A stretch of 64,000 bases of DNA from Maricaulis maris. GTDB taxonomy: Bacteria > Pseudomonadota > Alphaproteobacteria > Caulobacterales > Maricaulaceae. This document shows positions 29,212 to 30,645 of this stretch, piece after piece. Each line of letters starts with the position of its first letter. The first letter of the stretch is position 1. The translations under genes and the position numbers were made by a program. Where the stretch lies: contig NZ_AP027270.1 of NCBI RefSeq assembly GCF_036322705.1, positions 1,551,501 through 1,615,500 of the forward strand, in the 5' to 3' direction. The notes below the pieces were generated by a model. That model worked only from the letters and a program-made list of their open reading frames with translations. It searched no databases and had not been told where the DNA came from.

Positions 29212-30366
29212 CTATTCGGCGGCCGACACCTTGTCGATCGCATCCATGGCGTAGCACCCGAGCAGTTTGATCTCGCGGGTATGCTGCTCGAGGACCGACA
29301 TCGACTCGCGGATCTTGGCATCTTCCAGATGTCCCTCGACATCCATTATGAACATCTCCTCCCACGGATTGCCGGCGATCGGGCGCGACTCGAGTTTGAC
29401 CAGGTTGATGCCGTTGTCGCGGAAGCCGATCAGCGCATCGACCAGCGAACCGGGCGTGTCGCGGGTGGTGAACATCATCGAGGTCTTGCACTCCACTTCC
29501 CGTGTCGGGAGCTTGGCCTTGCGACCGATCACGATGAAGCGGGTAATGTTTTGCTCGTGGTCACCAACATTGCGCTCCAGGATATCCATGCCGAACAGGC
29601 GCGCCGCATCCTCGCCGGCGACGGCGACCGCCGTATCGTCATCTTCCAACAGCCGCTCCAGCGCCCGGGTTGTCGACGCGGCCATGTGGGTCTCAAGCTC
29701 GGGGTGCGAAGCGATATAGCGACGGCACTGGGCCAGCGCCTGCGGGTGCCCGAAGACCCGGCGAACACGCCCCTTCCCGCTCGCCCGGCCCACGAGGCAA
29801 TGGTCAACCCGAAGCAGAAACTCGCCGATAATCTGCGTGTGGGAATTGATCAGGATGTCATACACCTCATTGATCGATCCGGTCGTGGTGTTCTCGATCG
29901 GGATCACGCCGTAATCGACCTCGGCATTCTCGACCGCCCGGAAGATCGAGACGAAGTCGCGCTTGGGCGACGGGATGACCGTTGCATTGTGACGCTGGAA
30001 TACCTTCTGCGCCGCGATATGGCTGTAGCTGCCCGGCCCGCCCAGATACGCGACCGTGGCTTCGTTGAGCTCGTCATTGCGCAGGGAGTCGAATTGCTGC
30101 CGCTGACGGCGGATCGAGGCTTCGAACAGGGCATGGAAGAGCGTTTCGACGAGCTCCGCCGGAACGCCCTTTTCGGCACCCTGCTGAACCGCGTTGCGCA
30201 GGACTTCGCGCTCGCGTTCCCGGTCCCGCACCGGGCTGCCGCTGCGCGCCTTGGCCTTGAGGATTTCCTCCACCAGATCCGAGCGACGCGCGATGGCGTC
30301 AATCAGCTGATGATCGATCTCGCTGATCGCCATGCGGATATCGTCCCGCGTCATTTCCGTCGTCAT
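29212..30366 (-). CDS. pheA: Chorismate mutase / prephenate dehydratase
   Basis: 384 residues, key enzyme of phenylalanine synthesis. Domains: an AroQ-type chorismate mutase at about 1-95 (ISEIDHQLIDAIARRSDLVE, KARSGSPVRDREREREVL), prephenate dehydratase at about 105-280 (AYLGGPGSYSHIAAQKVF, GVIPIENTTTGSINEVYD, ENVGDHEQNITRFIVIG-like end) and an ACT domain at about 290-375 (KTSMMFTTRDTPGSLVDAL, LVKLESRPI) for Phe feedback. ATG at 30366 follows AAGGGA by 8 bases. Upstream lie an intrinsic terminator and a leader ORF with Tyr/Phe codons, which suggests transcription attenuation in addition to allosteric control. Confidence 0.95.
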   Translation of the reverse strand: MTTEMTRDDIRMAISEIDHQLIDAIARRSDLVEEILKAKARSGSPVRDREREREVLRNAVQQGAEKGVPAELVETLFHALFEASIRRQRQQFDSLRNDELNEATVAYLGGPGSYSHIAAQKVFQRHNATVIPSPKRDFVSIFRAVENAEVDYGVIPIENTTTGSINEVYDILINSHTQIIGEFLLRVDHCLVGRASGKGRVRRVFGHPQALAQCRRYIASHPELETHMAASTTRALERLLEDDDTAVAVAGEDAARLFGMDILERNVGDHEQNITRFIVIGRKAKLPTREVECKTSMMFTTRDTPGSLVDALIGFRDNGINLVKLESRPIAGNPWEEMFIMDVEGHLEDAKIRESMSVLEQHTREIKLLGCYAMDAIDKVSAAE

Positions 30367-30383
30367 GCTCGTCGTCCCTTCGG

Positions 30384-30418
30384 GCAAAAGAAAAGGGCCT
30401 CCCCTTGGGGGAGGCCCT
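30384..30418 (-). terminator. Leader terminator (attenuator) of pheA
   Basis: On the minus strand an 11-bp perfect stem (AGGGCCTCCCC with GGGGAGGCCCT), a 3-base loop and then TTTCTTTT. It ends about 18 bases before the pheA start codon and after the leader ORF, so it can only control pheA. The first arm can pair instead with GGGGGCGGTGGCC at 30449-30461 (GGGGG with CCCCC, GGCC with GGCC), a possible antiterminator. Confidence 0.8.
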
Positions 30419-30442
30419 GGTTACGCTGCGCTGTCGCACATG

Positions 30443-30514
30443 CTAGCCGGCCACCGCCCCCGATCGGGTCACGTTGGTAAAATAGCCAGCAAAGAGATAG
30501 GTCGCTTTGATCAT
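30443..30514 (-). CDS. pheA leader peptide (23 aa, Tyr/Phe codons)
   Basis: ATG at 30514, TAG at 30443-30445. The peptide begins MIKATYLFAGYFTNV and ends RSGAVAG; codons 6 and 11 are Tyr (TAT), 8 and 12 are Phe (TTT). No Shine-Dalgarno precedes the ATG; a weak promoter-like TTGACC at 30544-30549 would place the transcript start at or near the ATG, so it may be leaderless. The 3' part of the ORF contains one strand of the possible antiterminator. Ribosomes stalled at Phe codon 12 would leave that strand free; ribosomes reaching the stop codon would cover it. This is inferred, not proven. Confidence 0.6.
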   Translation of the reverse strand: MIKATYLFAGYFTNVTRSGAVAG

Positions 30515-30584
30515 GGGCAAACAGTGGCGACAGGCCCACGCATGGTCAATCCACTTTCACCGCATTGCCCGCATATTTTTGCAC

Positions 30585-30613
30585 AAAAATGGCCGGAGAC
30601 GTCGCCTCCGGCC
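30585..30613 (-). terminator. Intrinsic terminator of lon
   Basis: On the minus strand GGCCGGAG and CTCCGGCC form an 8-bp stem with a 7-base loop, followed by ATTTTTG. It lies 33 bases after the lon stop and separates lon from the pheA leader. Confidence 0.8.
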
Positions 30614-30645
30614 AAGATTGTTTCAAATGAAACGAGTTAGCGGGA

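Follow-up and report, generated by a model that had tools for sequence, protein, structure and literature searches.

A probable leaderless attenuator with phenylalanine and tyrosine control codons upstream of pheA in Maricaulis and related Maricaulaceae

What could control pheA in Maricaulis, and why would a leader in front of this gene contain tyrosine besides phenylalanine codons? The question was raised by a preliminary description of a 64,000-nt stretch of DNA (the window), the source of which is Maricaulis, its nearest named relatives being Maricaulis species. A ribosome-mediated attenuator with a Tyr/Phe leader peptide had been proposed there, and each of its elements, namely the 23-codon reading frame with Tyr at codons 6 and 11 and Phe at codons 8 and 12, the TTGACC box and the 11-bp stem with T-run between reading frame and gene, was recovered at its place on the minus strand (Table 1), whereby a CACTGT hexamer was found to complete the promoter. 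Along this strand the order is lon terminator, TTGACC, CACTGT, 23-codon reading frame, hairpin with T-run, Shine-Dalgarno sequence and pheA, all of it between lon and pheA, and five terminator-like sites were counted in the 600-bp region where shuffles gave an expectation of 0.4. The assignment of the gene was likewise right, its product being a P-protein with CM_2, PDT and ACT domains, the match of which to NF007910 amounts to 325 bits (cut-off 577). As judged from the comparisons reported below, the unit is very probably a leaderless, ribosome-mediated transcription attenuator of pheA controlled by Phe and Tyr.

Table 1. Coordinates of the features of the pheA leader region (positions in the window) and of the short TyrA-like protein.
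Feature	Position	Strand	Basis
lon terminator, shielding the leader promoter from the upstream gene	30590..30614	-	11-bp stem and T-run
-35 box TTGACC of the leader promoter	30544..30549	-	TTGAC 35-37 nt before the leader ATG in 45/45 leaders
-10-like CACTGT, 17 nt after the -35 box and 6 nt before the ATG	30521..30526	-	CANNNT conservation
Leader peptide ORF MIKATYLFAGYFTNVTRSGAVAG, 23 aa, probably leaderless	30443..30514	-	ATG 30514, stop TAG 30445-30443; intact frame in 45 leaders
Control codons Tyr6 (30499-30497), Phe8 (30493-30491), Tyr11 (30484-30482), Phe12 (30481-30479)	30479..30499	-	conservation in Maricaulis leaders
5' arm of the antiterminator, GGGGGCGGTGGCC, with its end directly ahead of the stop codon	30449..30461	-	pairs with the terminator 5' arm once the upstream RNA is masked
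Intrinsic terminator hairpin, 11 bp, stem AGGGCCTCCCC-CAA-GGGGAGGCCCT (loop CAA), then TTTCTTTT	30394..30418	-	T-run to about 30384; covariation
Shine-Dalgarno sequence AAGGGA of pheA	30375..30380	-	sequence; SD core at most 40 nt upstream in 37/45 pheA genes
pheA, bifunctional chorismate mutase-prephenate dehydratase with ACT domain	29212..30366	-	PF01817 (CM_2), PF00800 (PDT), PF01842 (ACT); ATG 30366
Short TyrA-like protein	L230:298-1017, from G000:C1:1766000-1767600	-	54% identity to the G004 protein

Conservation of the leader unit

A search of 137 genomes of the family identified full-length bifunctional chorismate mutase-prephenate dehydratase (CM-PDT) in Maricaulis and seven further genera, the others possessing a monofunctional dehydratase. 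Upstream regions of 50 bifunctional genes were examined, and in 45 of them a terminator and an intact leader frame of 18-25 codons, rich in Phe and Tyr, are present: every one of the 19 Maricaulis genomes searched has the leader ORF, the 11-bp terminator and a GGGGGCGGTGGCC-type arm before its CM-PDT gene, and 7 further genera of Maricaulaceae have diverged versions of the unit. In one further case (L038) the contig ends within the leader region, a remnant of which is still visible, and in four loci the leader was lost with the bifunctional pheA kept (L040, L043, L044 and L056; three of one genus, one of another), an absence which on sequence grounds is a secondary loss of leader and attenuator. 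A 46th leader was found in G089. As the 45 compared leaders come from related genomes, they are not independent samples; they nonetheless provide the conservation in relatives that the preliminary description had named as its test, with 45 intact frames and covarying terminators. No comparable Phe/Tyr leader was found upstream of 25 monofunctional prephenate dehydratase genes of the order, and among 289 sampled alphaproteobacterial genomes no other one matched the bifunctional protein at E 1e-50.

The leader thus compared is a short reading frame rich in codons for the end products of the pathway and located upstream of a biosynthetic gene, Phe and Tyr making up 235 of the 958 residues in the compared leaders. 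Within the 16 Maricaulis leaders of 23 codons the amino acids Phe8, Tyr11 and Phe12 are invariant, whereby synonymous changes occur at Phe8 and Tyr11 (Tyr11 being found as TAT and TAC), and at codons 6 and 7 Tyr and Phe are exchanged, usually with one Tyr retained. Both kinds of codon are accordingly conserved in the manner of control codons, as judged from sequence alone. The ratio of TTT to TTC is 43:19 in Maricaulis leaders as compared to 4:35 in lon, pheA and clpX taken together. A GGGG arm at the stop codon is kept across the 45 related leaders, and residues other than the aromatic codons and those of the RNA arm vary widely between genera.

Weak full-length matches of the leader model in other families of the order were rejected as pheA leaders, being thr or ilvD leaders and 3' ends of genes. 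Two Maricaulis loci (L119, G000:C1:2799394-2799541, outside the window, and L115, G064:C1:345684-345828, with the leader peptide MTLGLLLLVLVLITSSITGAVGAPA) show a Leu/Val/Ile-rich leader and a terminator directly before an ilvD-like dihydroxy-acid dehydratase gene, which is likely a branched-chain attenuator. In another family of the order, Thr-rich leaders with a terminator precede an aspartate kinase-like gene (L108, G298:C8, MTTTTPSAGTG; L110, G401:C1, MTGTTTITAPAGNG) and are likely threonine attenuators.

Promoter spacing and alternative RNA structures

The distance of the TTGAC box to the ATG (Table 1; leader L030 was re-set to its second ATG for this count) is accompanied in 44 of 45 leaders by a CANNNT element, which follows at a spacer of 17/18 nt and precedes the ATG by 6-7 nt, the mean in shuffles being 3.8 with none of 500 as high. 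As a -10 box and the start site are separated by just this distance, transcription is expected to start at the ATG, so that the leader mRNA is probably leaderless with its 5' end at or near the A of the ATG. Shine-Dalgarno cores precede 3 of 45 leader ATGs as opposed to 37 of 45 pheA genes, and pairing to the anti-Shine-Dalgarno sequence before the leader ATG is even weaker than in shuffles (-1.6 versus -2.4 kcal/mol). The fixed distance between promoter and ATG lends strong support to the earlier suggestion of a leaderless transcript, for which a measured precedent is given by the trpL RNA of Sinorhizobium meliloti, starting with the AUG of its leader ORF (PMC7298713, PMC10117765).

An intrinsic terminator lies between reading frame and gene, and its alignment is paired in 90.8% of cells, with a covariation score of 0.451 compared to 0.199 +/- 0.016 in shuffles and 81 cells changed on both sides compared to 31 (0 of 500 shuffles in either case). 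The arm assumed to compete with it starts 20 nt past Phe12 in all Maricaulis 23-codon leaders; measured from the end of the stop codon, it is found within 11-19 nt in almost every leader compared. Considered by itself, the Maricaulis antiterminator duplex is little stronger than in shuffles (z about -0.06 to -1.5), and since the shuffle test within Maricaulis was uninformative, partners were swapped among 17 representatives across genera: native arm-to-arm duplex energies sum to -387 kcal/mol, as compared to -333 +/- 12 kcal/mol for swapped partners, with none of 20,000 permutations as low. The case for the antiterminator therefore rests on the wider comparison, by which the pairing is species-matched between genera. 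Of the competing pairing described earlier, the arm and its matching over genera stand, but in Maricaulis alone the pairing is hardly above shuffles.

Predicted folds agree with the stalling model that had been put forward. When the ribosome is placed at Phe12, the RNA left exposed as far as the terminator loop is predicted to adopt the antiterminator fold (-27.4 kcal/mol), in which GGGGG pairs with CCCCC and then GGU with GCC, plus an inner hairpin; with the ribosome at the stop codon, the terminator is obtained. Sequence and folding evidence thus describe an antiterminator that excludes the terminator, being exposed by the stall and covered at the stop. In the ribosome-free fold, the control-codon region (GCUGGCUAU...) pairs with the antiterminator arm and the terminator is formed, a pairing which would correspond to the usual protector.

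The reaction sequence that we infer from these properties for start site, stalling and termination would begin with transcription from the A of the leader ATG, or from a base directly beside it, and with translation of the leader as leaderless mRNA. Shortage of charged tRNA-Phe or tRNA-Tyr would stall the ribosome at Tyr6, Phe8, Tyr11 or Phe12 and leave the arm free, which then would pair with the 5' arm of the terminator (GGGGG with CCCCC at 30411-30407, GGU with GCC at 30415-30413), whereby the terminator is prevented and pheA transcribed. With both charged tRNAs plentiful, the ribosome would reach the stop codon and cover the arm, the 11-bp terminator would form and transcription would end near 30384.

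A different view of the 5' end is that the same attenuator is transcribed from a promoter farther upstream that escaped detection and has a conventional 5' UTR, and a simple sigma-70 scan of the region indeed found no promoter-like site. Against this stand the fixed TTGAC(C/G)-17/18-CANNNT-6/7-ATG arrangement in 44 of 45 leaders, an anti-Shine-Dalgarno pairing that stays under shuffles before the leader ATG, with pheA possessing a Shine-Dalgarno sequence, and the lon terminator just upstream, which together make a 5' UTR distinctly unlikely. Considerably less probable still is that the unit represents a small gene or a terminated sRNA acting in trans, as rnTrpL/peTrpL, with pheA control being secondary or absent. 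The terminated leader RNA would resemble the short, leaderless S. meliloti rnTrpL, for which trans functions are described (PMC7298713), but the residues outside aromatic codons and RNA arm vary too widely between genera for a functional peptide, and every strong full-length match of the leader model within the family directly precedes pheA; an added trans role of the leader beside control of pheA may exist. That a chance reading frame stands beside the terminator of an unrelated transcript has a next to negligible probability: GC-rich DNA often contains short ORFs and hairpins, but family-wide conservation and covariation refute the idea.

Relation to pheL-pheA and origin of the P-protein

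The probably leaderless attenuator of Maricaulaceae shares with enterobacterial pheL-pheA (RF01859, Phe_leader) the CM-PDT gene, a Phe-rich leader, an antiterminator arm at the stop codon and a GGCCTCCC-type terminator, and the proteins form sister clades. Unlike enterobacterial pheL, its leaders contain Tyr codons in 44 of 45 cases, lack a Shine-Dalgarno sequence and probably start at or near the ATG. An Rfam search of the window revealed no family at gathering score over the attenuator, only tRNAs elsewhere passing. At a relaxed threshold RF01859 spans 30388-30508 end to end with 23.7 bits, the gathering score of 55 not being reached, and scores two enterobacterial-type leaders with 134 and 120 bits; in a pooled search that included nine members of the Maricaulaceae family, none of these reached E 0.5. 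When 199 sampled Pseudomonadota genomes were searched with a covariance model (R1) derived from the Maricaulaceae leaders alone, its best matches outside the window were four pheL-pheA attenuators from other bacteria (E 6e-9 to 5e-7).

Phe leader, terminator and pheA are also found in two gammaproteobacterial families (f167 and f204), which we infer to be Alteromonas-like. Here TTGAC is positioned 35-37 nt before the first in-frame ATG in 6 of 7 leaders (L163, L165, L170, L173, L175 and L186), as in Maricaulaceae, so that these pheL leaders are probably leaderless too and leaderless pheL may be spread wider than the alphaproteobacteria; unlike those of Maricaulaceae, they contain no Tyr codons. 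Sinorhizobium trpL/rnTrpL resembles the Maricaulis leader as an alphaproteobacterial attenuator; its RNA starts from the leader AUG (PMC7298713, PMC10117765), as is probable in Maricaulis, and it differs in being a Trp leader of 14 aa before trpE(G) with known trans functions. In open-access full-text literature, neither a pheA attenuator in alphaproteobacteria nor a Phe/Tyr pheA leader was found, which is weak evidence of novelty. Proteobacterial attenuators were reportedly surveyed in 2004. The principle is textbook; what appears to be new is the combination of Phe and Tyr control codons and the apparent lack of a 5' UTR, in an alphaproteobacterial attenuator missed by the Rfam model.

The Maricaulaceae P-protein is about 38% identical to the enterobacterial type, with up to 297 bits as compared to up to about 195 bits with other proteobacterial P-proteins. 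In the protein tree (midpoint root, long branches flagged) the Maricaulaceae are sister to the enterobacterial-type clade, the join being supported by 100/100 and the two groups being single (96/91 and 100/98), and most of the enterobacterial-type clade carries pheL. As the Maricaulaceae protein is sister to a gammaproteobacterial, pheL-controlled P-protein, a transfer is suggested, whereby joint transfer of gene and attenuator would be the simplest reading; an independent origin of the Maricaulaceae attenuator may also apply.

Tyrosine codons and pathway wiring

Tyr is present in 44 of 45 Maricaulaceae leaders and in none of 17 gammaproteobacterial pheL leaders. Outside Maricaulis, TyrA (PDH_N) matches in leader genera do not exceed about 27 bits, G004 being the exception, and nearly all genera with monofunctional PheA have a TyrA match. 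Among leader genomes with a completeness of 80% or more, phenylalanine hydroxylase was found in all but G004, which possesses TyrA and has the sole leader without Tyr (MVSRGQFFGFSNASRPGGAA); this association has a single negative genome. G003, of the same genus, possesses the hydroxylase and lacks TyrA; its leader contains three Tyr. Most Maricaulis genomes possess the hydroxylase (TIGR01267, 342 bits) together with a short TyrA-like protein, which has 240 aa, is 54% identical to the TyrA of G004 and falls under all NCBIfam prephenate dehydrogenase cut-offs; the three Maricaulis genomes without TyrA match have 3-4 Tyr codons, the others mostly 2. In genus g15 (e.g., G083:C1:1313156-1313884) the hydroxylase matches occur in two pieces inside one longer frame (372-519 aa), as if the domain contained an insertion.

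The mix of Tyr and Phe codons, remarked upon in the preliminary description, looks selected. As Tyr in this family is probably made largely from Phe by phenylalanine hydroxylase and is in this way PheA-dependent, Tyr would be a signal besides Phe, and pheA probably senses both amino acids since both depend on PheA. The TyrA-like protein in most Maricaulis genomes counts against a firm dependence of Tyr on PheA there, and the hydroxylase may also serve catabolism (PMC1173090). An explanation by PheA being the sole chorismate mutase was dropped, as a 108-aa CM_2 protein is also present in the genome.

An attenuator responding to Phe alone, its Tyr codons being incidental (as aromatic look-alike or for reasons of RNA sequence), would be in line with the 17 of 17 gammaproteobacterial leaders that are Phe-rich without Tyr and with the TyrA-like enzyme retained in Maricaulis. 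It does not readily explain a near-universal Tyr, an invariant Tyr11 written as both TAT and TAC, the swap at codons 6 and 7 that usually keeps one Tyr, or the opposite states of G003 and G004 within one genus, and is for these reasons considered rather unlikely.

On the preferred reading of dual Phe and Tyr control, it was considered that the attenuator entered one Maricaulaceae lineage together with a gammaproteobacterial-type P-protein, that its Phe sensor was re-tuned to Phe plus Tyr as TyrA was lost or reduced and Tyr was made from Phe by the hydroxylase, and that Tyr codons disappeared where TyrA was kept and the hydroxylase lost (G004), a scenario about equally likely to be right or wrong. 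If true, the codon content of the leader would be a readable record of pathway wiring. Independently of this scenario, the probable attenuator extends attenuation of pheA to an alphaproteobacterial family where the Rfam model fails to score, and the family offers a natural series in which to ask whether the codons of a leader follow the amino acids that depend on a gene. With the Maricaulaceae leader, a second alphaproteobacterial attenuator is probably leaderless, which bears on how a ribosome may engage nascent RNA without a 5' UTR early enough to control termination.
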